Shown here: positions 18,277 through 30,275 of the stretch, one piece after another
Layout of the letters: each line of letters opens with the position of its first letter
Numbering within the stretch: the first letter of the stretch is position 1
Assembly (NCBI GenBank): GCA_003009755.1
Contig: PXUB01000022.1
Span: 1 to 64,000 of the forward strand
Length of the DNA: 64,000 nt
Reading direction: 5' to 3'
Origin: Thermoplasmatales archaeon SW_10_69_26
Lineage (GTDB): Archaea; Thermoplasmatota; SW-10-69-26
Notes under the pieces: model-generated
Databases searched by the model: none
Seen by the model: only the letters and a program-made list of their open reading frames with translations
Told to the model about the DNA's origin: nothing
Program-made: the position numbers and the translations under genes

Positions 18277-18309
18277 CCCCCTGGAGATATGTTTAAGAGC
18301 CTCCAGGGG
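18277..18309 (+). promoter_or_regulatory. Palindromic operator around the TATA box of the ABC uptake operon
   Basis: A perfect 9-bp inverted repeat, CCCCTGGAG (18277-18285) and CTCCAGGGG (18301-18309), brackets the TATA element TTTAAG (18292-18297). The TATA centre is 26.5 nt before GTG 18321. A dimeric repressor bound here would block TBP/TFB. The regulator and ligand are unknown; a cobamide, heme or siderophore signal would fit the operon. Confidence 0.75.
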
Positions 18310-18320
18310 TGGGCCGGGGC

Positions 18321-19412
18321 GTGGTGGCCGCAGCGCGCCCGCTGGCGTTCGCCCTCCTCGTCGTCCTGACCCCCGTCGCCGGATGCATGGGGGACACCGG
18401 CGAGCCCGAGGGCGTCATCGTCACCAGCCAGCCCCTGGTCGACGCCTTCCACGAGCTCGATCGGGCCGACCAGCTCGCCGGCGTCCCCGATTGGGCGATC
18501 GTCGACGAGCCGCCCGCCGCCGACCGGGTCGGACGCCCGTTCGTGATCGAGGCCGAGGAGGTCGTCCGACGGGAACCGGCCCTCGTCCTCGACCAACCCC
18601 ATCCCCTCGTCACGGGGCCCTCGCGCGAGGCGATGGCGACCGGCGTCCAGCAGGCCGGCATCGGCTACGAGAAGCTTCCGAGCGAGCCCGCGCTGGGCAC
18701 CGTCGAGGCCACGCTGGCGGCCGCCGGCGAGGCTACCGGCACCGATCACACCGACGCCTGGCAGCAGATCCGATCGGACCTGGCTGACCTGAACGAGACG
18801 CTGGCCGACCAGCCGCGTCCCAGCGCGCTGTTCCTGTTCCCCGCCGGCCTCGTCGCGGGCACCGACACCGACGTCGACCTCATCCTCGAGCTGGCCGGCA
18901 TGGAGAACGCCGCCCGCGAGGCCGGGCTCACCGGCTACGCGCAGATCACCGACGAGGCCGTGCAACGCACCGACGTCGACCTCGTCATCGCGACGGCAAC
19001 GATGCACACCACGCCCGAGGAGATCGCCGGCCGCCCGATGTTCGCGGACACCGCGATCGAGGACAGCCCCGAGCGCGTGCTCGTCGTCGACCCCAGCCGA
19101 ACCACGCGCCTGGGCCCCCACGTGGCCGAGGCCGCCTCCCAGCTGGCCGCCTGGAGCCACGAGGAGATGCCCGGGCCGCGCGTGAGCCCGACGCTGGACC
19201 CCTACGAGGTCCACGCCTGCGAGCCGGTCGACGTCGACGTCGACGCACCGAACGCGACCGTCACCCTCCTGGGCGAGACCCACGACCCCGGCACGGTCAC
19301 CGTGCCCGACGTCGCGGAGGGCCACTACCGCCTGACGGTCGAAGCCCGCGACGACACGGGCACGGCCACCACGACGACGATGCTCACCGTGGAGGGATCG
19401 GATTGCGCCTGA
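18321..19412 (+). CDS. ABC transporter substrate-binding lipoprotein (BtuF/FecB type)
   Basis: Extracellular solute receptor for a type II ABC importer of vitamin B12, heme or a siderophore. The signal peptide ends with the lipobox VAGC. The body follows the class III binding-protein pattern: a first lobe with VIVTSQPLVDAFHELDRADQLAGV, a long helix region (DAWQQIRSDLADLNETLAD), and a second lobe with VDLVIATATMHTTPEEI. An added Ig-like beta domain closes the protein (CEPVDVDVDAPNATVTLLGE onward), which is unusual. GTG 18321 is preferred because it lies 26.5 nt after the TATA centre and starts right at the signal peptide. The stop overlaps the next gene by 10 nt. Confidence 0.8.
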   Translation: MVAAARPLAFALLVVLTPVAGCMGDTGEPEGVIVTSQPLVDAFHELDRADQLAGVPDWAIVDEPPAADRVGRPFVIEAEEVVRREPALVLDQPHPLVTGPSREAMATGVQQAGIGYEKLPSEPALGTVEATLAAAGEATGTDHTDAWQQIRSDLADLNETLADQPRPSALFLFPAGLVAGTDTDVDLILELAGMENAAREAGLTGYAQITDEAVQRTDVDLVIATATMHTTPEEIAGRPMFADTAIEDSPERVLVVDPSRTTRLGPHVAEAASQLAAWSHEEMPGPRVSPTLDPYEVHACEPVDVDVDAPNATVTLLGETHDPGTVTVPDVAEGHYRLTVEARDDTGTATTTTMLTVEGSDCA

Positions 19413-21040
19413 CGCCGCTCGTGCTCGCCTGCCTGCTCGTCTCCCCGCCCGCCCTCGGCCAGGCCTGGTCGCAGGAGAACGCCGACCCGGCCAACACCGG
19501 CCGCCTGGACAGGGCCGGCCCCACGAGCCTGGAGGACGCCCAGTTCACGCCCGTCGACGACCAGGTGCTCACCCAGGTCACCGAGGGCCCGGCCGGGCTC
19601 GCCCTGGCCGGCTCGCTGGGTGGGACCGTCTACGCCGTCGACGCCAGCGGCGAGGTCGTCTGGCAGGCCGACGTCGCCGACGAGATCCGCACCGCGCCTC
19701 TCTGGACCGGCGAGGTCGTCGTCGTGGTCCCCCGCGGCGACCGGGTTCACGCCTTCACCCCCGAGGGCGAGGAGGCCTGGACGGTCCCGATCGCCAACGA
19801 CCGCGGCGCCACGCTCGTCCGCATGGCCAGCCCCGTCGAGCACCCCAGCGGCGACGTCATCGTGGGCACGATGGACGGGACCGTCTACCGCCTCACGCCG
19901 CAGGGCTCGACCGTCTGGACGACGACCATCGGCGAGGACGACGCCGTCGAGGCCACTCCCGCCATCACGCCCGACGGCGACGTGATCGCCGCCGCCTTCG
20001 AACCCGGGCGAGAGGGGCGAGGCTTCCTCGCTCGCCTCGACGCCGACACGGGCGAGCGCACCTGGCAGCTCGACATCGGGTCCCAGGTCGTCGGCGCCCC
20101 CGCCGTCGTGGCCGACACCGTGCTCGTGCCCCTGCGCGACGGCAACGCCGTGCAGGCTCGCAGCCTCTCCGACGGCTCGCTGATCTGGGAGACGGCCTTC
20201 GACTCCCGCGTCCCCGCCTCACCCTCACTGCACGAGGGGCTGGCGATCGTGGGCGACATCCGCGGCACGGTGCGCGCCCTGGAGGTCTCCGGCGGCAAGA
20301 TCGCCTGGGAGTTCAACCCCCTCAGCGACGATCCCGACGTCGAGCTGGGCGGCAGCGGCCGCTACACGATCGCCGACAGCCTCGCCGTCGACGACGAGGG
20401 CGTCGCCTGGGTTCCCTACTGGGTGTTCGAGGCCGGCTGTTGCCCCCCCTCCGACTCGGTGCGCAGCCCCATCTACCGCCTCGACGCCGACGACGGCGAG
20501 ATCCTCGACCGGCGCTCGGACGCCAAGGCCAACCACGGACCCGCCCTCCACGCCACCGGCGTCTGGACCGGCAGCGACGAGCAGGGCGTCCGCTCGTTCC
20601 CGCTGGATCCCAGCCTCCAGCTCGACGCCCGCACCGACGCGGGCCAAGCCCGGTTGATCGTCAACACCGACGCGACCGGCGACTGGCGGGTCGCGACCGG
20701 GGACCGCTCGCTGGACGAGGGCCAAGGCCGCCCGCCGACGGTCTCCGGCTACGATCTCGACCCCGGCCAACACAACCTGACCGTCACCGTCGACGACCTC
20801 GCCAGCCAGGCCACCGTCGAGATCGAGGCCGACGACGGCGACGACGATCCCGCCCGCCCCGAGGACCAAGACCCCTCGGCGCCCACGGACGATGCCGAGC
20901 CGGAGCCCGAGCCCTCAGGCGAGGACGAGGAGCCCAACACCTCCGAGGGCGGCGCCGAGGACCCCCAACCGGCCCCGCTGGCCGCCTGGGCCGCCTGGCT
21001 CGCCATCGGGCTCGCCGCCGGGGTGCGACAACGTGCGTAG
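19403..21040 (+). CDS. Secreted PQQ-type beta-propeller protein with C-terminal anchor
   Basis: Exported protein of 545 residues starting at TTG 19403, preceded by a GGAGG-like ribosome site in the end of the upstream gene. It has a signal peptide, then about seven propeller blades of the PQQ/quinoprotein-like type: repeated GTVYAVDASGEVVWQADV, GTVYRLTPQGSTVWTT and GTVRALEVSGGKIAWEF. A beta domain (TVSGYDLDPGQHNLTVTVDD) and a long acidic Pro/Glu linker lead to a C-terminal hydrophobic helix that anchors it to the membrane. There is no sign of catalytic PQQ ligands, so a scaffold or ligand-capture role next to the binding protein is likely (inference). It overlaps both neighbours in the ABC operon. 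Confidence 0.8.
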   Translation: MRLTPLVLACLLVSPPALGQAWSQENADPANTGRLDRAGPTSLEDAQFTPVDDQVLTQVTEGPAGLALAGSLGGTVYAVDASGEVVWQADVADEIRTAPLWTGEVVVVVPRGDRVHAFTPEGEEAWTVPIANDRGATLVRMASPVEHPSGDVIVGTMDGTVYRLTPQGSTVWTTTIGEDDAVEATPAITPDGDVIAAAFEPGREGRGFLARLDADTGERTWQLDIGSQVVGAPAVVADTVLVPLRDGNAVQARSLSDGSLIWETAFDSRVPASPSLHEGLAIVGDIRGTVRALEVSGGKIAWEFNPLSDDPDVELGGSGRYTIADSLAVDDEGVAWVPYWVFEAGCCPPSDSVRSPIYRLDADDGEILDRRSDAKANHGPALHATGVWTGSDEQGVRSFPLDPSLQLDARTDAGQARLIVNTDATGDWRVATGDRSLDEGQGRPPTVSGYDLDPGQHNLTVTVDDLASQATVEIEADDGDDDPARPEDQDPSAPTDDAEPEPEPSGEDEEPNTSEGGAEDPQPAPLAAWAAWLAIGLAAGVRQRA

Positions 21041-21929
21041 GCGCTGGCTGGCCGGCCTCGTCGGCCTCGCCATCGTGACCGTCGGCACGCTCGTCGCCCG
21101 CGTCGTCGTCTTCCCTCGGCCCCTCTCGATCGAGGTCGCGGGCACGATCGTGAACCTACGAGCCCGCATCGCCGTCGCCGGGCTCGTGATGGGTGCCGGG
21201 TTCGGGCTCGCCGCCGTCGGCGCCCAAGCCCGCGCCCGCGAGATCCGCATCGACGCGACCCTCGCCGGTCCCGCCTGGGGCGCCCTGCCCGGCCTGTTGC
21301 TCCCCGTGCCGGTCGCCGGGCAAGCGATCGCGTGCCTGGTCGGCGCCGGCCTCGTCGCCTGGCTGACGCGCCGCTCGGCGGGCCTGTCGGCCACGCTGAC
21401 CCGCGGCGTCGCCGTCGCGGGCGCCGTCGTCGGCCTCGCCGCGCTGGGCCTGTTCGTCGGGCCCGGGCTCACCCCGACGACCGCGACCGCGTTCCTGCAC
21501 GCCTCCCTGGGCGGCGCCCTCACCCAAGCGACCTGGCTCCGCACCGCGATCGGGGGAGCGCTCGTGCTCGGCGCGCTCGGCCTCGCCTGGGCGCGCTGGC
21601 GCCAACTGGCGCTGGCCCGCGCCGGCCTGGACGAGGAGGCCTCCGCGGCCGCACTCGTCACCGTGCTGGCCTCCGCCGGCGCCGTGCTCGTCGCCGGCGT
21701 CGTGGCCGGGCTGGGCCTCATCGCGACCGCGATCGCCCGCCCCATCGTCGGCGAGGATCCCCGCTTGGCGGCCCCAGGCGGCCTGGCCGCCGGCGCCGGC
21801 GTGGGGTTGGCCCTCGACGGGATCGGGCAAGCCCTCGCCTGGCCGGGCGAGCTGCCCGTCGGCGTGTTGACCTTGATCGTCGCGAGCCTGCTGCTGGCTC
21901 GGGAGGTGGTGCCCGCTGATCCGCGTTGA
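21033..21929 (+). CDS. ABC transporter permease, FecCD/BtuC family
   Basis: Integral membrane permease of 298 residues, somewhat shorter than the usual 330. It starts at GTG 21033, overlapping the propeller gene by 8 nt. About nine to ten hydrophobic helices are visible. Family-like stretches include LRARIAVAGLVMGAGFGLAAVG (BtuC: LRLPR...G..LA.aG) and GLGLIATAIARPIVGEDPRL (BtuC: FVGLvvPhivR...G.dhr), which is the coupling region that contacts the ATPase. It probably dimerises and carries the ligand handed over by the binding lipoprotein. Confidence 0.88.
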   Translation: MRRRWLAGLVGLAIVTVGTLVARVVVFPRPLSIEVAGTIVNLRARIAVAGLVMGAGFGLAAVGAQARAREIRIDATLAGPAWGALPGLLLPVPVAGQAIACLVGAGLVAWLTRRSAGLSATLTRGVAVAGAVVGLAALGLFVGPGLTPTTATAFLHASLGGALTQATWLRTAIGGALVLGALGLAWARWRQLALARAGLDEEASAAALVTVLASAGAVLVAGVVAGLGLIATAIARPIVGEDPRLAAPGGLAAGAGVGLALDGIGQALAWPGELPVGVLTLIVASLLLAREVVPADPR

Positions 21930-22578
21930 GGAGCTGGGCGTCCGCCGCGGCCACGAACCCGTCCTGTTCGCCAGCGAGCTGACCGTCGGCGACGAGGTCG
22001 TGGCCCTCATGGGCCCCAACGGCGCCGGCAAGACCACGCTTTTGCAGACGCTGGCCGGTCAACTGAACCACAGCGGCACCCTCGAGCAGGGTCCGACGGC
22101 GTTCCTGGGAGCTCGCCCGCCCGAGCCCGTCGACATGCAGGCCGTCGAGCTCGTGCGCGCCCACGGCGCCGAGGACCCGCAGGCGTGGCTGGATCGCGTC
22201 GGGTACGAGGGCCCCGAGCTCGTCTCCCGCGGCAGCGCCGGCGAGCGCGCGCTCGTGGGTCTGGCCGGCGCCCTCAGCCGCGCGCGCGACCTGCTCCTCG
22301 ACGAACCCTTCGGCCCGCTGGACCCACCCCACACCGCCCGCGTGTGGCCAAGGCTGGCCGACCACGCCGAGGACCACGCCGTCCTGCTGGCGACCCACGA
22401 CCCGACCGTCGCCGCCCGCGCCGACCGCGTCGTGCTCCTCGCCGGCACGATCGTGGCCCAAGGCCCGCCCCGCGAGGTGCTGGCCGAGGAGCCCTTGTCC
22501 GACTGCTATGGCGCCCCGGTCGACGTCGCCTGGACCGATCTGGGGCCCGTCGTGCGGGGCCGAGAGCGCTCCCATTGA
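21916..22578 (+). CDS. ABC transporter ATPase (BtuD/FecE type) with non-ATG start
   Basis: Nucleotide-binding subunit of the upstream importer. Walker A GPNGAGKTT is at about residues 33-41, a degenerate signature SAGERALVGLAGAL replaces LSGGQ, Walker B is LLLDEPFGPLD and the switch His is in LLATHD. The frame is closed by stops at 21868 and 21874 and has no ATG, GTG or TTG before the internal GTG 22000, which would cut off the first strand and leave Walker A almost at the N-terminus. Translation therefore probably begins at CTG 21916 (or the ATC after it), overlapping the permease stop by 14 nt. The protein of 220 residues is short for the family. Confidence 0.85.
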   Translation: MIRVEELGVRRGHEPVLFASELTVGDEVVALMGPNGAGKTTLLQTLAGQLNHSGTLEQGPTAFLGARPPEPVDMQAVELVRAHGAEDPQAWLDRVGYEGPELVSRGSAGERALVGLAGALSRARDLLLDEPFGPLDPPHTARVWPRLADHAEDHAVLLATHDPTVAARADRVVLLAGTIVAQGPPREVLAEEPLSDCYGAPVDVAWTDLGPVVRGRERSH

Positions 22579-22917: not shown

Positions 22918-24945
22918 TCAGTCGAGGCGGGGCTCGAAGGGATCCACGTCCCACCAGACGTGCGTGGCGTGCGTGGCCGACCCCAGCGGGACCGGGCTGG
23001 CGGGCACGGCGGCGTCCCCGCCGCCGAGCTGGTCGTCCGCGACCGTGACGATCGCGGCCGCCGCCAGGCCGTCGCCCTCCAGCGGCTCGCCGGCGATCTG
23101 CCAGCTGCTCGTGAAGCCGCCCGTCGGCTCCCCGCACTGCGGCTGGAAGGCGTCCTCGATCGCGACGACGGGTCGGTCACCGGCGGCTCGGTCGATCGCA
23201 TCCTGGACCACCGGGTCGGCCTGGTCGAGACCCTCGGAGAGCATCACGACGGCCGTCGGCTCGGCCACGACCCGCGTCTCGCCGGTCTGCGGGTTGGACA
23301 GCACACCGTCGGTGAGGCGCAGCGTGATGGCCAACCCGGTCGGGTCGGCGTAGCCGGCCCCGGTCGCGAGGTCGCCGATCGTGGTCCCCGACCGGAACGA
23401 GCAGCCCTCGCCCGCGGCGTGGTGGTCCCACAGGATCGGGTAGGCGCCGTGGTCCTCGATCGAGAAGACCTCCGAGCCGGGCGCCTGCTCGTAGTCGCCG
23501 TCGTCCTCGACGTCGGTGAACAGGCCCACGTGCCCGGTGACGCGCATGCTGGGGCGCGGCTGGTGGTCGGGCTCGGGCTCGGCGCCGGCAGGCGTGCCGA
23601 ACCCGGCCGCGGTCCGGGTGACGTGCGCGTCGATCACGTTCACCCACGGGTCGGCCTCCTCCTCCCCGGTGGCCAGCGTCTGGCAGTCGGTCAGCGTGCG
23701 GTTCTCGGAGACCTCGTGGCTGGATTCGAGGATGCCCATCCACTCGTCGGCGTTGGGCTCGGGCTCGTGCGAGGTGACGGCGGGGCTGGCGGTCACGTTC
23801 TCGCCGGCCGGCGTGTCGGCCACGTCCGGCGCGCGTCCATCGCGCAGCGGACCCAGGCCGGGCACGTTCTCGGAGGCCTCGTCCCAGACGAAGGGCACGC
23901 CTTGGGCCGGCGTGTCGTCGCTGGGCGGCTCGTAGATGTCGAGATCGTGGGCGAGGAACGCAGTGGAGCTCGTATCGAAGCCCGGTTCGGCGGCGCCGCA
24001 CTTGTCCGGCGGGCTCGGCGCGACGACGCCGTGCCAGACGGCGAAGTGGTGGGCGCTGTTCCAGGCGTCGGACAGATAGCAGGCGGCGTGCCACATCGGG
24101 CACATCGTCGTGCCGCGCCAGGCCGGCTGCGCCTGACCGCAGACGTAGGTCTCGGCCTCGCAGGGCTCGTTCTCGTCCTCGCCGGTGCCCATCCAGTCCA
24201 GCTCGACCTCGCAGCGGCCGGCGTCGGGCGCGTGCGTGCCGAGGTGGGCCTCGGGCGTGAACGCGCACACCTTGGCGGTAGCCGTCGGGTCGAGGCCGCC
24301 GCCGTTCTTCTCGTCGGTGACGATCGTCGACAGGCGGTCCTCGTCGACCGGGTCGCCCTCGTCATTGGTGACGAAGGCGACGAAGCTCGTGTCGGTGACC
24401 GGCAGCAGCCAGCCTTGGCCGGCCGCGTCGTAGGCCTGCATCGGCGAGACCGCGTACAGGTTGCCGCCGTAGGCCTGCGTGCCGCCGTCGTCGACCTCCC
24501 CGGGAGTTGGCGTCAGGCCGACGCTGGCGCCGGCCTCGTGCACGGCGTCGTAGGTGCCCGGGCTGTTGCACCAGGGCTCGCACGCCGTCGTCCCGTACAG
24601 GCCGACGTAGGTGGCGAACTGCAGGTCGACGGTGATGGCCTCGTCGGCGCCCGCCGCCTGGTCGGGCGGACTCGTCGTATTCATCTCGGTGCCCTGGTTG
24701 TACACGAGCTCGCCGCAGAACCCGTCGGCGGTGAGCGTTCGGGCGCCCTCGGGCTCGGCGCAGCCGGTGTCCGTCCCGCGGTCCCAAAGCTCCTCGTCGG
24801 TGTCGGCCGGCGGCTCGGCCTTCGAGAGACCGGCGGTGTCCTCGGCGCCGGCGCTGAGGTGGAAGGCCACGCCGGTGGGGGCGAGCAGCGCAGCGACGAT
24901 CGCAGCCAGCAGCGCGAACCGGATCGGGGATCGGTCTCGGGGCAT
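22918..24945 (-). CDS. Secreted Cys/His-rich protein of the iron operon
   Basis: Exported protein of 675 residues with a signal peptide (FALLAAIVAALLAPTGVAFH). It is acidic and contains many Cys residues, likely disulfide-bonded, and His clusters such as MCPMWHAACYLSDAW and NSAHHFAVWHG that could bind a metal or heme; no CxxCH heme-c motif is present. No known family is recognised. Its ATG overlaps the stop of the FTR1 fusion gene (ATGA), so the two form one operon under the same iron-type box. A role as extracellular partner of the permease, for example a metal-binding or oxidising subunit in place of EfeO/EfeB, is inferred from position only. Confidence 0.75.
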   Translation of the reverse strand: MPRDRSPIRFALLAAIVAALLAPTGVAFHLSAGAEDTAGLSKAEPPADTDEELWDRGTDTGCAEPEGARTLTADGFCGELVYNQGTEMNTTSPPDQAAGADEAITVDLQFATYVGLYGTTACEPWCNSPGTYDAVHEAGASVGLTPTPGEVDDGGTQAYGGNLYAVSPMQAYDAAGQGWLLPVTDTSFVAFVTNDEGDPVDEDRLSTIVTDEKNGGGLDPTATAKVCAFTPEAHLGTHAPDAGRCEVELDWMGTGEDENEPCEAETYVCGQAQPAWRGTTMCPMWHAACYLSDAWNSAHHFAVWHGVVAPSPPDKCGAAEPGFDTSSTAFLAHDLDIYEPPSDDTPAQGVPFVWDEASENVPGLGPLRDGRAPDVADTPAGENVTASPAVTSHEPEPNADEWMGILESSHEVSENRTLTDCQTLATGEEEADPWVNVIDAHVTRTAAGFGTPAGAEPEPDHQPRPSMRVTGHVGLFTDVEDDGDYEQAPGSEVFSIEDHGAYPILWDHHAAGEGCSFRSGTTIGDLATGAGYADPTGLAITLRLTDGVLSNPQTGETRVVAEPTAVVMLSEGLDQADPVVQDAIDRAAGDRPVVAIEDAFQPQCGEPTGGFTSSWQIAGEPLEGDGLAAAAIVTVADDQLGGGDAAVPASPVPLGSATHATHVWWDVDPFEPRLD

Positions 24946-27224
24946 CAGGTGTCAGTCTCCGTCTCGAAGAGGGGGTCCATGGCGTCGACGATCGTGTCGA
25001 CTTGGGCCTGAGCGCGCGTCTCGTGACCGAACGCGCTCGAGGTGATCGTGATCTCCACGTTCTGCCGGGTGAGGTGGGTCTGGTAGTCGGCGTCGTAGTG
25101 GGGGGCCTGGCGGGGATCGAGGTCGTAGCTGAGCCGGTGGTTGACCAGGTTGTCGAACCCGTCGCCGGGCAGCTCGTAAGGCACGTCGAGCAACAGCTCG
25201 TGGCCCTGCTTGCTGGCGTTCTCGACCGCCTCGGTCGGCGAGTAGATGCCGTCGTCGGGGTCGTCGGCGCCGGCACCGTACACCTGGTGGATCGAGGTGT
25301 TCGGCGCCAGCGAGCGGTTGTCGAGCGCGGCCTCGACGTTGGCGAACATCGCCATCGTCTGGTTCACGTAGGGATCCTTGCGGTCCCGGCACTGGCTGTC
25401 CAGATCGGGGTCGGCACCGTGATGGGTGAGGGACAGCCAGACGTCCTCGCTCTGCGGGTAGGCGGTCAGCTTGTCGGCGATCGCGTCGGCCATGCCCTGG
25501 GCGAAGGTGTCCGTCAGGCCGCTGGGGCCGGCCTCGAGCACGCGGCCCTCGTAGCCGTGCTCGTCGAGGGCCTCGTGGAAGGCCTTCTCCTTCATGCACT
25601 CGTTCATGATGTCGCTGTGCAGGTGGCTGGTGTAGGCGTCGACGATCACGTCGACGTCGGCCTCGACCAGCTGCTCGGCGCTGGCGGAGACGCTCTCGTC
25701 CCTCGGATCGACCATCGGGCGGATGTGGTGGGCGCGCTCGACGACGAGCTCGCCGTCGAAGCGCTCGTCCAGCGTCTGCTCGATGCGGTCGAGCACCTCG
25801 GTCTTGGCCTCGTGCATCTGGCTGGCGTTCTCCATCTGCCGGTAGTCCTTCCACGCGCCCAGACCGGCCGCCTCGAGGATGTCGGGCTCGCCCAGCCCGG
25901 GGCCGCCGGGCATCACGTACATGCCGTCCACGGCGGGCACCTGCTGACGGTCGGGGACCGGGCTGCCGACGTAGGTGGCCGGCCCGGCGTGGTGCTCGAG
26001 CCAGGCGTCCATGTAGTCCGGCATCGGGCGCGGCTCGTTCGCGTGGGGACGGTCCTCGTCGACGAGCACCGTGCCCTGGTCGATCGCGAGCAGCTCTTCG
26101 AACCCGAGCTGGATCAGCAGGTTGCGGGTGAACTCGGCGAACTCCACGTACGTCGTCGCGTTGTACTCGAGGGGCTCGCCGTGGGAGCGAAGCATGACGC
26201 CCACGGTCGCGTCGTCGGGCAGCTCCTCGCCGGTCGGCGCCTCGTCGCCGTGGGCGGAGGGACCGTGGTCGTGGCCGGTCGCCGCCGTGCCCAGGCCCTC
26301 GACGGGGTCCTGGGCGGCCATGCCGACCGTCGAGAAGGCGAGCACGAGCGCGAGCGCGACGGCGCCGACGCGGCCGGGCCGCAGCTGGCGGCCCTGCGTC
26401 GTCGCCGTGGTGAAGAAGCCCTGCTGGTAGAGGAAGGCGCCGCCGGCGATCGCGAGGTACCCAAGGTAGGCCAGCGCCTGGTACAGGGTGGGCGCGGCCG
26501 TGTAGCCGACGGCGGCGTGAAGGATGCGGCCGAGGACGGAGTCGGGCGCCAACAGCCACGAGGTGTCCCACAGGGCCGCCTGCGGGGCCAAGAAGCCGAG
26601 CTCGGTGAGCGCTTCGACGGCGTGCGTGAGCAGCATCGCCGCGACGACGAGCAGGAAGGCGCCCGTGACCTGGAAGAACCGCTGCAGGTTCACGTGCCGG
26701 CTGGCGCGCAGCACGAGGTACACGAGGCCGGCGCTGACGGCGAAGCCGACCGCGCCGCTCCACAGGAGGTCGAGCATGGCGTGCTCGGTCGCCAGCGTCG
26801 CGTAGAACAGCACGGTCTCGAGGCCCTCGCGGACGACGCTCAGGAACGTGATGGCCACGATCGTGGCGACCGATCCCGCCGTCAAGGCCTCGCGGACCTG
26901 CTCTTTGGCCTCCGAGAGGACCTGGGTGGTGTGGCTCCACATCCAGAAGACCATGTAGGTCAGCGTGCCGACAGCCAACAGGATGGCCACCAGCTCGAAC
27001 CAGGCGCCGTAGCCGCCCTCCTCGAAGGCCGTGAACAGGTGCTCGTAGATCAGCCAGCCCGCGCCCACGCTGGCGATCACGGCCGCGCCGAACCCGGCCC
27101 AGACGTGCTTGCGGACGTCGGGCCGACCCAGCCGTGACACCAGGCCGAGCAGGATGCCGGTGATCAACAGCGCCTCGAGTCCCTCGCGGAGCGCGATGAG
27201 CGCGGCCTCGGTGACGAACGCCAT
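24945..27224 (-). CDS. FTR1-type iron permease fused to an extracytoplasmic ferrochelatase-like domain
   Basis: 759-residue membrane protein. Residues 1-305 form an FTR1/EfeU permease: about seven helices and the two REGLE iron-binding motifs at 13-17 and 132-136. A His-rich linker (GHDHGPSAHGDE) follows the last helix, so the C-terminal part should lie outside. Residues 341-755 match the ferrochelatase pattern in order: VGVMLRSHGEP (family LLMxHGTP), a VDVIVDAYTSH strand, LTHHGADP at 599-606 followed by DRKDPY at 614-619 (family AHGLP...GDPY), then the LLLDVPYELPGDGF strand (family VVPxGFxSDH). Some catalytic residues look degenerate. Only FTR1 is certain; the chelatase-like assignment rests on motif order. 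Confidence 0.88.
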   Translation of the reverse strand: MAFVTEAALIALREGLEALLITGILLGLVSRLGRPDVRKHVWAGFGAAVIASVGAGWLIYEHLFTAFEEGGYGAWFELVAILLAVGTLTYMVFWMWSHTTQVLSEAKEQVREALTAGSVATIVAITFLSVVREGLETVLFYATLATEHAMLDLLWSGAVGFAVSAGLVYLVLRASRHVNLQRFFQVTGAFLLVVAAMLLTHAVEALTELGFLAPQAALWDTSWLLAPDSVLGRILHAAVGYTAAPTLYQALAYLGYLAIAGGAFLYQQGFFTTATTQGRQLRPGRVGAVALALVLAFSTVGMAAQDPVEGLGTAATGHDHGPSAHGDEAPTGEELPDDATVGVMLRSHGEPLEYNATTYVEFAEFTRNLLIQLGFEELLAIDQGTVLVDEDRPHANEPRPMPDYMDAWLEHHAGPATYVGSPVPDRQQVPAVDGMYVMPGGPGLGEPDILEAAGLGAWKDYRQMENASQMHEAKTEVLDRIEQTLDERFDGELVVERAHHIRPMVDPRDESVSASAEQLVEADVDVIVDAYTSHLHSDIMNECMKEKAFHEALDEHGYEGRVLEAGPSGLTDTFAQGMADAIADKLTAYPQSEDVWLSLTHHGADPDLDSQCRDRKDPYVNQTMAMFANVEAALDNRSLAPNTSIHQVYGAGADDPDDGIYSPTEAVENASKQGHELLLDVPYELPGDGFDNLVNHRLSYDLDPRQAPHYDADYQTHLTRQNVEITITSSAFGHETRAQAQVDTIVDAMDPLFETETDT

Positions 27225-27470: not shown

Positions 27471-28253
27471 ATGGGCGAGACCGTCCGCACGGAGCGTCGG
27501 GGGCCGGTGCTGGAGATCGTGCTCTCACGGCCGGACAAGCGCAACGCGATCGACGGCGAGATGGCCGCCGAGCTCTTCGAGGCCTGGGCCCGCCTCGGTG
27601 ACGACGACGTCCGCGCGGGGGTGCTCGCCGCCGACGGTCCCGCCTTCTGCGCTGGCGCCGACCTCGAGGCCCTCGAGACGCTGGGTCCCGGGGACGGCTT
27701 CCAGTTGGGGGACCCCGAGCGCGAGGCGTTCGTCTCCGGCGAGGAGGGCTATTTAGGCCCGACCCGCCAACCGTTCCCGCCCGTCCCCGTGATCGCGGCC
27801 GTCCAGGGTCCAGCCCTGGCCGGCGGTCTCGAACTGACCTGCCTTTGCGATCTCCGCGTCGCGGGCGAGGAGGCGACCTTCGGCGCCACCAACCGCGAGT
27901 GGGGGGTCCCGCTCGTCGACGGCGGCAGTCAGCGACTCCCGCGCATCGTCGGCCTCGGTCGCGCGCTCGAGCTGGTGCTCACCGGCCGGGTGCTCCGGGC
28001 CGAACATGCCGCCCAGATCGGCCTCGTCAACGATCTCGTGCCCGAGGGCGGCGAGCGCACCCGGGCCGGCAAGATCGCCGACCGGATCACCCAGCTGCCC
28101 CAAGACGCGCTGCGAGCCGACCGCCGGTCGGTCTACGAGGGCATGGACCGTCCGATGGCCGACGGGTTGGAGATCGAGGCACGCAACGGGCAAGAGGTCG
28201 TCGAGGCCGAGGGCTTCGAGGCCGGCCCGCGCCGGTTCGCGCTGGACGAGTAG
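27471..28253 (+). CDS. Enoyl-CoA hydratase/isomerase (crotonase) family protein
   Basis: Cytoplasmic CoA-thioester enzyme of 260 residues. The crotonase pattern is clear: LSRPDKRNAID, the oxyanion-hole segments FCAGADLEAL and GPALAGGLELTCLCDLRVA, then ATFGATNREWG and SQRLPRIVGLGRALELVLTGR. Acidic residues at both positions expected for hydratase catalysis are present (REWG and ALELVLTG), so a hydratase role in fatty-acid or branched-chain CoA metabolism is plausible, though the exact substrate cannot be read. A TATA-like AAATATG at 27400-27406 predicts a start near 27430. It is divergent from the iron operon. Confidence 0.9.
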   Translation: MGETVRTERRGPVLEIVLSRPDKRNAIDGEMAAELFEAWARLGDDDVRAGVLAADGPAFCAGADLEALETLGPGDGFQLGDPEREAFVSGEEGYLGPTRQPFPPVPVIAAVQGPALAGGLELTCLCDLRVAGEEATFGATNREWGVPLVDGGSQRLPRIVGLGRALELVLTGRVLRAEHAAQIGLVNDLVPEGGERTRAGKIADRITQLPQDALRADRRSVYEGMDRPMADGLEIEARNGQEVVEAEGFEAGPRRFALDE

Positions 28254-28257
28254 ATCC

Positions 28258-28629
28258 TCAGATCGACTGCGCCCCCCAGCGTCCGATCAGGGCGCCGGCG
28301 AGGCAGGCGACGAGCGTGAGCGCGAGGTACCCGATCGCCCAGCCGAGGCTCCCGTCGCTGCCGAGGGCGACCGTCTCGTAGCTGAACGTGCTCATCGTCG
28401 TGAACGAGCCCAAGAACCCCACGCCCACGGCGGCGGTAGCGGCCGGCGTCACCCACTCCGTGCCGGGCTCGGTACCCAACAGCAGGCCGAGCAGGAAGCT
28501 GCCGAGCACGTTCACCGTCAACGTCCCCCAGGGCAGATCCCCGCGGGTGAGGAGCTCGCTGATCCACCAGCGGGCGAGACCGCCGCCCGCCGAACCGGTC
28601 GCAACCCAGGCTGCCACGTGCCAATCCAT
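28258..28629 (-). CDS. crcB: Fluoride channel FluC/CrcB
   Basis: Small four-helix membrane protein (123 residues) that works as an antiparallel dimer to export fluoride. Diagnostic motifs are GSAGGGLARWW near the N-terminus, GTLTVNVLGSFLLG, and the pore signature GFLGSFTTMSTFS. ATG 28629 gives the canonical length; the frame stays open further upstream but without family sequence. No second crcB copy and no convincing fluoride riboswitch is seen in the 181 bp upstream. It follows the ars operon on the same strand. Confidence 0.93.
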   Translation of the reverse strand: MDWHVAAWVATGSAGGGLARWWISELLTRGDLPWGTLTVNVLGSFLLGLLLGTEPGTEWVTPAATAAVGVGFLGSFTTMSTFSYETVALGSDGSLGWAIGYLALTLVACLAGALIGRWGAQSI

Positions 28630-28810
28630 CGTCGTCTGCCTCGTGCCCTGCGGGGTCGGGCCTCGGCCGGGCCGGCGGTTCCCTCGGCCCCATCGCCCGA
28701 CTCGTCGAGGCCGAGCAACGGCCTCAACGTTGCGGTCTCCGACGAGCTGCCCCGGTGGGTGACCGAGGCCGACACGCCCTGTCCCTGCTTCGTCGGAGGT
28801 GGCGGTCCGG

Positions 28811-29227
28811 TCAGCCGTCCTCGGCCAGGGCCTCGTGTTCGGCGAGCAGCGCGCGGACCCGCCCTCGGATCTCGTCGCGCGTCTCGCGGTACTCGTCCAG
28901 CGAGTCCGGGTGGTCGAGGCTCCAGTCCGCCACGTCGTAGGGCTCGAACACCGGCATGGCGGCTTGCCCGCAGCCCATCGTGGCGATCGCGTCGGCGGCC
29001 TCGAGGTCCTCCTCGTCCACGGGTGTGCTCGCGTGGTCGGAGAGGTCGAGGCCGATCTCATCCATGACGGTCAGGGCCTTCTCGCGGACCCGACCCAGCG
29101 GGTCGGTGCCGCCGCTGAGGCACTCGACGTGGTCGGCGCCCACCTCCTCGCAGAACGCCTGCGCCATCTGGCTGCGCGCGCTGTTGCCGACGCACGCGAA
29201 GTACAGGCGGACGGGTTCGGGGCTCAT
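28811..29227 (-). CDS. arsC: Arsenate reductase, low-molecular-weight phosphatase family
   Basis: Cytoplasmic protein of 138 residues with the P-loop C-V-G-N-S-A-R at 12-18, the Cys-x5-Arg active site of LMW-PTP-type arsenate reductases, and the later Asp-Pro region DVADWSLDHPD. Such enzymes reduce arsenate to arsenite. Thioredoxin-coupled members use two further cysteines; here only one is in the expected place (ATMGCGQAAMP) and the second is replaced, so the resolving thiol may differ. The ATG overlaps the aquaporin stop (ATGA). It is the last gene of arsR-aquaporin-arsC. Confidence 0.9.
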   Translation of the reverse strand: MSPEPVRLYFACVGNSARSQMAQAFCEEVGADHVECLSGGTDPLGRVREKALTVMDEIGLDLSDHASTPVDEEDLEAADAIATMGCGQAAMPVFEPYDVADWSLDHPDSLDEYRETRDEIRGRVRALLAEHEALAEDG

Positions 29228-29964
29228 CCGGCCACCTCCGGCTCGGTGTCGGCGGCGGTCTCGCTCGGTCGGGCCCGCGGCGTCCGCACGTCCTCGTAGT
29301 CGACCGTCCGCACAAGCTCGTAGCCGAACATCGCCGCGATCGATCCCACGACGGGGGCCGCGAGGTAGATCCACACCATCGACCAAGTGCCGGAGACGAC
29401 GGCCGGTCCGAGGGTGCGGGCCGGGTTCATGCTGCCACCGGTCAGCGGACCCGCGAAGAGGGCGCCGATCGTGACGGCCAAGCCGATCGCCAGCCCGCCG
29501 GCGGCCTCGGGCACGCGGTCGTCGGTGGCGACGGCCGCGATGACGAACGCCAGCAGCGCGGTTGCCAGCGTCTCGGCCAGCACGGCGCCGGTCACCGAGA
29601 GCTCGGCGGCCGGCACGGTGGCGCCCAGCTGCCCCACCGGCCCCACCATGACGAGGAGCGTGCCGGCCGCGGCGGTGGCCCCCGCGAGCTGGGCCCCGAT
29701 GTAGGTGGGCACCCGCCGCCAGGGGAAGTGCCCGATGGCGGCGAACCCGAGCGTGATGGCCGGGTTGAAGTGGGCGCCGCTGACGTGACCGAGCGCGTAA
29801 ACCATCACGGCGATCGTCAACCCGAAGGTCCAGGCGACGCCGACGTGGGAGACGCTCGCGCCCGCCACGAAGCCATCCGCCACGATCGCCCCGCAACCGG
29901 CGAGCACGAGCGCGAACACGCCGATCGCCTCGGCCAGCTCGGCCCGCGGGTGCCGGCCGCCCAT
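29224..29964 (-). CDS. Aquaglyceroporin of the ars operon (AqpS-like)
   Basis: MIP-family channel of 246 residues with six transmembrane helices and two NPA motifs: HFNPAITLG (NPA at 67-69) and GGSMNPARTLG (NPA at 180-182). In rhizobial ars operons an aquaglyceroporin (AqpS) replaces an arsenite pump and lets arsenite leave down its gradient after ArsC reduces arsenate. The same gene order here suggests the same job. ATG 29964 overlaps the arsR stop by 3 nt; the upstream open frame is low-complexity shadow sequence. No ArsB or Acr3 gene is nearby. Confidence 0.93.
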   Translation of the reverse strand: MGGRHPRAELAEAIGVFALVLAGCGAIVADGFVAGASVSHVGVAWTFGLTIAVMVYALGHVSGAHFNPAITLGFAAIGHFPWRRVPTYIGAQLAGATAAAGTLLVMVGPVGQLGATVPAAELSVTGAVLAETLATALLAFVIAAVATDDRVPEAAGGLAIGLAVTIGALFAGPLTGGSMNPARTLGPAVVSGTWSMVWIYLAAPVVGSIAAMFGYELVRTVDYEDVRTPRARPSETAADTEPEVAG

Positions 29965-30275
29965 CAGCAACAGCCCTCCGCGCGGCAGGCCTCGGGGTCG
30001 CTGGCTTCGATGTGGTCGACCAGCCAGGCCCCCTCCTCGAGGAGATCGGCCAGCCGAGGGTGGGCCAAGCGGTACAGCCGCCGCTTGCCCTCGCGGTCGG
30101 CGACGGCCAGCCCGCAGTCCCGCAGCTCGGCCAGGTGGTGGCTGAGGTTGCTCTGCTCCTGGTCGGTGGCGTCCGCCAGCTGGGACACCGAGGCCGGGCC
30201 CTCCCGGGCCAGGTGGTGGAGCACCGCCAGCCGGGTCCCGTCGGCGAGGCACCGATAGAATGAGGCCTCGTTCAT
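29964..30275 (-). CDS. arsR: ArsR-family metalloregulator
   Basis: Winged-helix repressor of 103 residues: FYRCLADGTRLAVLHHLAREG, then the recognition segment EQSNLSHHLAELRDCGLA and a wing DREGKRRLYRL. Cysteines at positions 9 and 54 and the C-terminal CRAEGCC cluster (three Cys) are candidate arsenite ligands, a layout unlike the CxC helix of plasmid ArsR. It is the first gene of the ars operon. An imperfect inverted repeat CATATCA...TGGTATG spans the start region (30273-30303) and may be its own operator. Confidence 0.93.
   Translation of the reverse strand: MNEASFYRCLADGTRLAVLHHLAREGPASVSQLADATDQEQSNLSHHLAELRDCGLAVADREGKRRLYRLAHPRLADLLEEGAWLVDHIEASDPEACRAEGCC

Follow-up and report, generated by a model that had tools for sequence, protein, structure and literature searches.

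Genetic context of the fusion gene

The window, by which we mean the whole stretch of 64,000 nucleotides that was analysed, contains a gene in which an FTR1-type permease is joined to a ferrochelatase-like domain; the genome that carries it (G000) is 95% complete. The reading frame was recovered exactly where an earlier sequence-only reading had put it, and lies on the minus strand, which that reading had left unstated. The gene and its neighbours are:

18309-22578, plus strand: ABC importer set of the heme/B12/siderophore class, convergent to the fusion operon
22918..24945, minus strand: gene for a secreted-type protein of 675 aa, downstream of the fusion gene, with an ATGA overlap
24945..27224, minus strand: FTR1 permease-ferrochelatase-like fusion gene, an open reading frame of 759 aa
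28258-30275, minus strand: consecutive genes for an ArsR-type regulator, an MIP aquaglyceroporin, a protein of the low-molecular-weight phosphatase/arsenate-reductase type and a CrcB-like protein

The codon-position GC of the fusion gene (.71/.43/.96) is like that of the neighbouring genes. The 675-aa gene is probably co-transcribed with the fusion gene and encodes a Cys- and His-containing protein that has no Pfam match. A role of this protein as an iron component is unsupported: its family (G000 loci L037-L044) has paralogues at seven further places in G000, they have mixed neighbours (as read from the translations), and none was found in the 139 other genomes that were searched. The convergent importer set consists of a Peripla_BP_2 binding lipoprotein, a PQQ-propeller protein, a FecCD permease and an ATPase, whose best NCBIfam matches were to heme and corrinoid importers, all under cut-off. 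The row of genes at 28258-30275 resembles an arsenic/fluoride resistance cluster, the arsenic part being our own reading.

Architecture and predicted topology of the fusion protein

The following features were located within the fusion gene:

26430..27206, minus strand: FTR1/EfeU permease domain (residues 7-265; PF03239, 6.9e-33), with seven predicted helices
27174..27188, minus strand: first REGLE motif (residues 13-17), from the sequence
26817..26831, minus strand: second REGLE motif (residues 132-136), from the sequence
26313..26369, minus strand: added eighth membrane helix (residues 286-304), from hydropathy and the K/R counts of the loops
26211..26312, minus strand: linker (residues 305-338) with His318, His320 and His325, from the sequence
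24963..26210, minus strand: ferrochelatase-like domain (residues about 339-754), from homologues, profiles, fold and alignment
25419..25421, minus strand: codon of H602, aligned with the ferrochelatase catalytic His and invariant in 11/11 homologues
25152..25154, minus strand: codon of D691, which takes the place of the active-site Glu in ferrochelatase

The PF03239 profile scored 114.6 bits on residues 7-265 (cut-off 25.3) and the EfeU equivalog NF041756 scored 178.4 bits, under its cut-off of 255; judged by these profile scores the permease is a member of the FTR1 family and was not filed as an EfeU orthologue. Its two REXXE-type motifs lie inside the seven-helix core. The N-terminal 305 residues had been taken for a normal FTR1: the family assignment and the two REGLE motifs stand, but the family match stops at about residue 265, and residues 286-304 appear to be not FTR1 proper but an added helix, owing to which the C-terminus points outward. 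Since EfeU and Ftr1p have seven helices according to the literature (PMC9174327), an eighth one should bring the C-terminus of the fusion protein to the outer side. An equivalent of this helix was found by hydropathy in the fusion protein of G076 and, by reading of the sequence, in the permease of G002.

The K and R residues counted in successive loops (0, 4, 0, 2, 1, 3, 1, 3, 0) predict an outer location for the N-terminus as well as for the C-terminal domain, and the G076 fusion shows the same pattern. The homologue of G142 has a hydrophobic segment at its N-terminus and a membrane helix at its C-terminus, that of G093 has an N-terminal segment, and that of G151 has a lipobox. On the basis of the loop charges and these exported homologues the ferrochelatase-like domain is predicted to lie outside the cytoplasm; the loop charges thereby agree with the outward-facing orientation that had been proposed before. 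Six homologues (in G359, G411, G426 and G439) contain no signal segment, lipobox or membrane helix and look cytoplasmic.

Identity and fold of the C-terminal domain

The domain of about 415 residues gave no direct match to Pfam or NCBIfam up to an E of 10, barring the unrelated CysD (0.081), and phmmer against the PDB returned nothing but an aldolase (E 0.24), so that the relationship to ferrochelatase is founded on homologues and fold. PF00762 was above its cut-off in 8 of the 11 full-length homologues (the G000 domain, G076 and G151 were missed), a profile of six homologues matched the B. subtilis ferrochelatase at 2.1e-4, and a profile-profile match to seven archaeal HemH sequences had a probability of 97.3 (E 1.9e-11). 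The HemH equivalog TIGR00109 had no match in the fusion protein, and among eight homologues that were tested it matched six under its cut-off and two not at all.

An AlphaFold model of the G000 domain was built from three sequences (pLDDT 58.6, pTM 0.60); residues 20-142 of the modelled domain, its N-terminal third, are of low confidence and the fold of that region is not established. Foldseek with this model listed a ferrochelatase first (5.1e-9), VIA-align matched it to ferrochelatase/CpfC (Z 19.7, 284 residues, rmsd 4.0), and the somewhat better model of a homologue (pTM 0.69) matched ferrochelatase with a Z of 21.5 over 292 residues (rmsd 3.7). The ferrochelatase-like character that had been suspected from motifs is thus borne out in the fold search, where ferrochelatase/CpfC came out on top and CbiK, SirB and FetB ranked behind. 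According to these models, the predicted extracytoplasmic domain has the class II chelatase fold of ferrochelatase, its N-terminal part being modelled with low confidence, and we are highly confident of this fold and of the outward location taken together.

Active site

Over the 11 full-length homologues 24 positions were invariant, including H602-G603, which aligns with the motif that holds the catalytic His in HemH. Of the motifs on which the ferrochelatase assignment had first been based, HGEP (348-351), LTHHGADP (599-606), the DRKDPY stretch (D617, Y619) and PYELPGDGF (682-690) aligned with conserved HemH or family positions. With respect to the two active-site residues of ferrochelatase, compared by alignment, the His is retained as the invariant H602 but the Glu position is occupied by Asp (D691), in keeping with the earlier remark that some catalytic positions looked changed. 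This position holds Asp in 7/11 homologues (G000 included), His in 4/11, and Glu in 7/7 archaeal HemH sequences. The residue numbers used for the B. subtilis and human enzymes presumably correspond to the positions of H602 and D691, and our alignments support this. According to a review, every variant of human H263 that was studied is inactive, and in human ferrochelatase E343D a step after chelation is impaired (PMC9133952). The invariance of H602, combined with the human variant data, makes it plausible that the domain could perform chelation chemistry.

Distribution and history of the family

Whole-genome searches within the same phylum recovered homologues in 6 of 145 genomes (two weak matches dropped) and in 8 of 389 (one weak match dropped); at the class level, homologues were found in 5/80 genomes of the class of G142 and in 4/150 of that of G359. 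Over these overlapping sets ten genomes carry the domain: G000, G076, G093, G142, G151, G239, G359, G411, G426 and G439. The weak matches that were excluded from the counts were those in G058 (E 7.5e-4, 59 aa), G100 (E 0.0099, 79 aa) and G144 (E 5.1e-4, 68 aa); from G239 there is an incomplete homologue (132 aa, lying where a contig ends), which was used in the gene-order count and left out of the 11-sequence conservation analysis and the tree. No homologue was found on viral contigs or plasmids. A scan of contigs from 84,980 species with short peptide patterns from two close homologues returned two genomes, both already known; distant members may thus exist elsewhere.

In the tree the domain family forms a single clade separate from HemH (100/100), within which the G000 domain groups with those of G076 and G151 (91/94). 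A fusion to FTR1 occurs in two genomes, G000 and G076, which belong to different classes of one archaeal phylum. As the same architecture recurs in G076 (35% domain identity), it did not arise through an error of assembly. The recurrence of the fusion elsewhere among archaea, which the sequence-only reading had suggested looking for, was therefore observed, and in two more genomes homologues turned up in FeoB clusters. Among the open-access literature in PubMed Central, we found no paper whose title or abstract describes this fusion.

FTR1 itself was present in 17/243 genomes searched. In the FTR1 tree the permease of the G000 fusion is sister to the G002 permease (95/94) and that of G076 falls outside both (87/87). 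The G002 permease (L064 1231-2304, minus strand) shares the extra helix and ends in an outward tail that contains His, but it has no chelatase domain, which fits the capture, or the loss, of the domain on an existing outward stub. The tree agrees as well with one gain of the fusion followed by a loss in G002 as with two separate gains. An enoyl-CoA hydratase-like gene follows the G002 permease, and an enoyl-CoA hydratase gene (27471-28253, plus strand) adjoins the fusion gene. Two other FTR1 proteins carry an extra domain at the N-terminal side (L079 1433-2818, plus strand, on contig C38 of G000; L078 306-2444, plus strand, in G006); the extra part of the G000 copy has no Pfam match.

Gene neighbourhoods of the homologues

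In G142 the homologue lies downstream of FeoB, from which it is separated by a single gene for a small membrane protein, and an iron-dependent repressor is found upstream. The intervening gene (L016 6613-7143, plus strand) encodes a membrane protein of 176 aa that belongs to no Pfam or NCBIfam family. In G239 a contig ends within a homologue, and after the C-terminal part of this homologue come the genes for FeoA, FeoB, an iron-dependent repressor and a flavodoxin. The FTR1 fusions in two genomes and the FeoB clusters in two others tie the domain to two unrelated iron permeases: what the partners in these four genomes have in common is that they are iron permeases, while their type differs.

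Reading of the neighbouring translations revealed no recognisable iron-transport gene near the G093 homologue or at the six cytoplasmic-type loci, and the G151 homologue is located on a contig of 4.4 kb. As six homologues look cytoplasmic and lie away from recognised iron permeases, uptake is not the only role of the family. The cytoplasmic-type homologues (L073, L074, L075, L076, L077 and L018) include one group beside ABC-transporter genes and another beside a Band_7 (SPFH) gene, and four of them have His at the HemH Glu position.

Tetrapyrrole metabolism of the host genomes

Neither HemB nor HemC was found in the 95% complete G000, while a heme-copper oxidase is present, and therefore the organism probably has to take up tetrapyrroles. 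PF00762 also had no match in this genome, in a search that misses the fusion itself. Among the domain-bearing genomes HemB was detected in 2 of 7 tested, HemC in 3 of 10 and a heme-copper oxidase in 3 of 10, and neither HemB nor the oxidase was found in G142, G093 and G239. The loss of tetrapyrrole synthesis was considered as a strong and specific signal and rejected as such, given that HemB is rare anyway (4/79 genomes of the class of G142); the absence of HemB and HemC is for that reason context, not proof. The missing HemB and HemC together with the oxidase weakly support the removal of iron from a tetrapyrrole.

Proposed function and alternatives

The ligand of the domain is likely to be a tetrapyrrole, and the genomic context favours extraction or binding above insertion. 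Our preferred reading, to which we give just under an even chance, is that the domain removes iron from heme outside the cell and hands this iron to the permease. The domain would bind heme or another iron tetrapyrrole at the outer side of the membrane and run the chelatase reaction backwards, with His602 giving protons to the pyrrole nitrogens so that the ring would let go of its iron. The tether, and the linker with its His residues, would then hold this iron close to the entrance of the FTR1 channel, and the two REXXE-type motifs of FTR1 would carry it inward; in this scheme we infer the substrate, the catalysis and its direction, the source of reducing power, and the hand-over. The broader formulation, in which the fusion protein would be a single-polypeptide heme-iron importer based on reverse ferrochelatase chemistry and the free relatives would serve FeoB likewise, is put forward with more reserve. 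Among the points against iron release are that i) the active-site Glu is an Asp in the fusion domain; ii) the close G002 permease does without the domain; and iii) the usual direction of the ferrochelatase reaction is toward heme, for whose formation these enzymes have been called biased (PMC12583661). No electron source for ferric heme was identified, the flavodoxin of G239 being a hint only.

The same Asp speaks for a non-catalytic receptor that concentrates heme, porphyrin or iron at the permease while any removal of the iron is left to another protein, an alternative that we consider rather unlikely but likelier than the two that follow. In its favour, too, the fused clade is less HemH-like and misses PF00762, with the G000 and G076 copies among the most divergent, and FTR1 partners of the EfeO/EfeM type are described as binding metal, with no enzymatic role known for them (PMC9174327). 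A protein that merely binds, however, has no need of the catalytic His and its motif, which are invariant in 11/11 homologues.

That His and the ferrochelatase fold would also suit a forward chelatase that puts metal into scavenged porphyrin outside the cell, or exchanges metals, as proposed for FetB, which is reported to put manganese into protoporphyrin on the surface of the cell, the removal of iron being given just as a possibility (PMC13402209). G000, moreover, needs heme for its oxidase, and HemB and HemC were not found there. Fusion to or clustering with an iron importer would nevertheless be senseless for a reaction that consumes iron outside, and by these searches G142, G093 and G239 have neither HemB nor a heme-copper oxidase, which makes insertion improbable.

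Equally improbable is that the fold was recruited to bind free metal or an iron chelate, in the manner of a periplasmic binding protein and without any tetrapyrrole, for which the invariant family motif without a recognised HemH counterpart (D382, G384, T385; G441, G443, G445, E446, D448, E451), the poorly modelled N-terminal part and the sugar-type binding proteins lower in the Foldseek list may be cited, but against which stand the HemH porphyrin-site motifs that occur in order (M464, S468, H602-G603, D617/Y619, P682 to D691) and the position of the chelatases far above other folds in the structure searches.

Relation to known systems

The domain resembles HemH/CpfC (PF00762, TIGR00109) in fold (Z 19.7), motif order and catalytic His. 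It differs in its predicted location outside the cell, its fusion to a permease, the Asp at the Glu position and a longer N-terminal insertion, and it forms a separate clade; TIGR00109 has no match in the fusion protein, and all eight tested homologues stay below its cut-off or do not match.

The EfeUOB/FepABC systems of E. coli and S. aureus likewise combine an FTR1 permease with an extracytoplasmic partner, and EfeB/FepB is reported to free heme iron, which is released outside with the ring left intact (PMC3577903); in the fusion the partner is instead part of the permease polypeptide and folds like ferrochelatase, whereas EfeO and EfeB have cupredoxin/M75 and DyP folds (PMC9174327). In B. 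fragilis heme iron is said to be released in the periplasm for FeoAB (PMC6460266). HmuS is presented as a membrane-bound de-chelatase in a model with FeoB as the importer (PMC12583661; also PMC13227078). HmuS/BtuS (CobN-like, from Bacteroidota) are similarly membrane-anchored and outside the cytoplasm, with Feo taking the iron in the published model, but are of the CobN/ChlH type, count 1469 residues and are described as structurally unrelated to ferrochelatase (PMC12583661).

FetB/IhtB of Porphyromonas gingivalis is an exported protein that has a class II chelatase fold and has been discussed as a heme de-chelatase (PMC13402209, PMC6460266); its structure (PDB 9b86) matches the G000 domain model with a Z of 14.5, but it is CbiK-like, has no permease fusion, and is given a function in metal insertion or exchange (PMC13402209). 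The periplasmic CbiK of Desulfovibrio vulgaris is, by its PDB title, another class II chelatase outside the cytoplasm (2xvx, 2xvz; Z about 14); it is named a cobalt chelatase, is a weaker match than ferrochelatase and has no permease domain in the match.

Implications

Iron uptake from heme that spares the ring is an unsettled matter, and proposals have been made for EfeB, for HmuS and for FetB. In these archaea, the fusion and the arrangement of genes link a domain of the ferrochelatase fold, on the predicted outer side of the membrane, to two unrelated iron permeases. Being small and soluble, of known fold and with a catalytic His predicted, such a domain offers a direct test case for iron being extracted outside the cytoplasm and passed on to a channel. 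If the proposed function is true, this would be a ferrochelatase relative that serves iron acquisition and not heme synthesis, and it would constitute a general archaeal module for stripping iron from heme that needs neither heme oxygenase nor DyP peroxidases nor the CobN-type de-chelatases.
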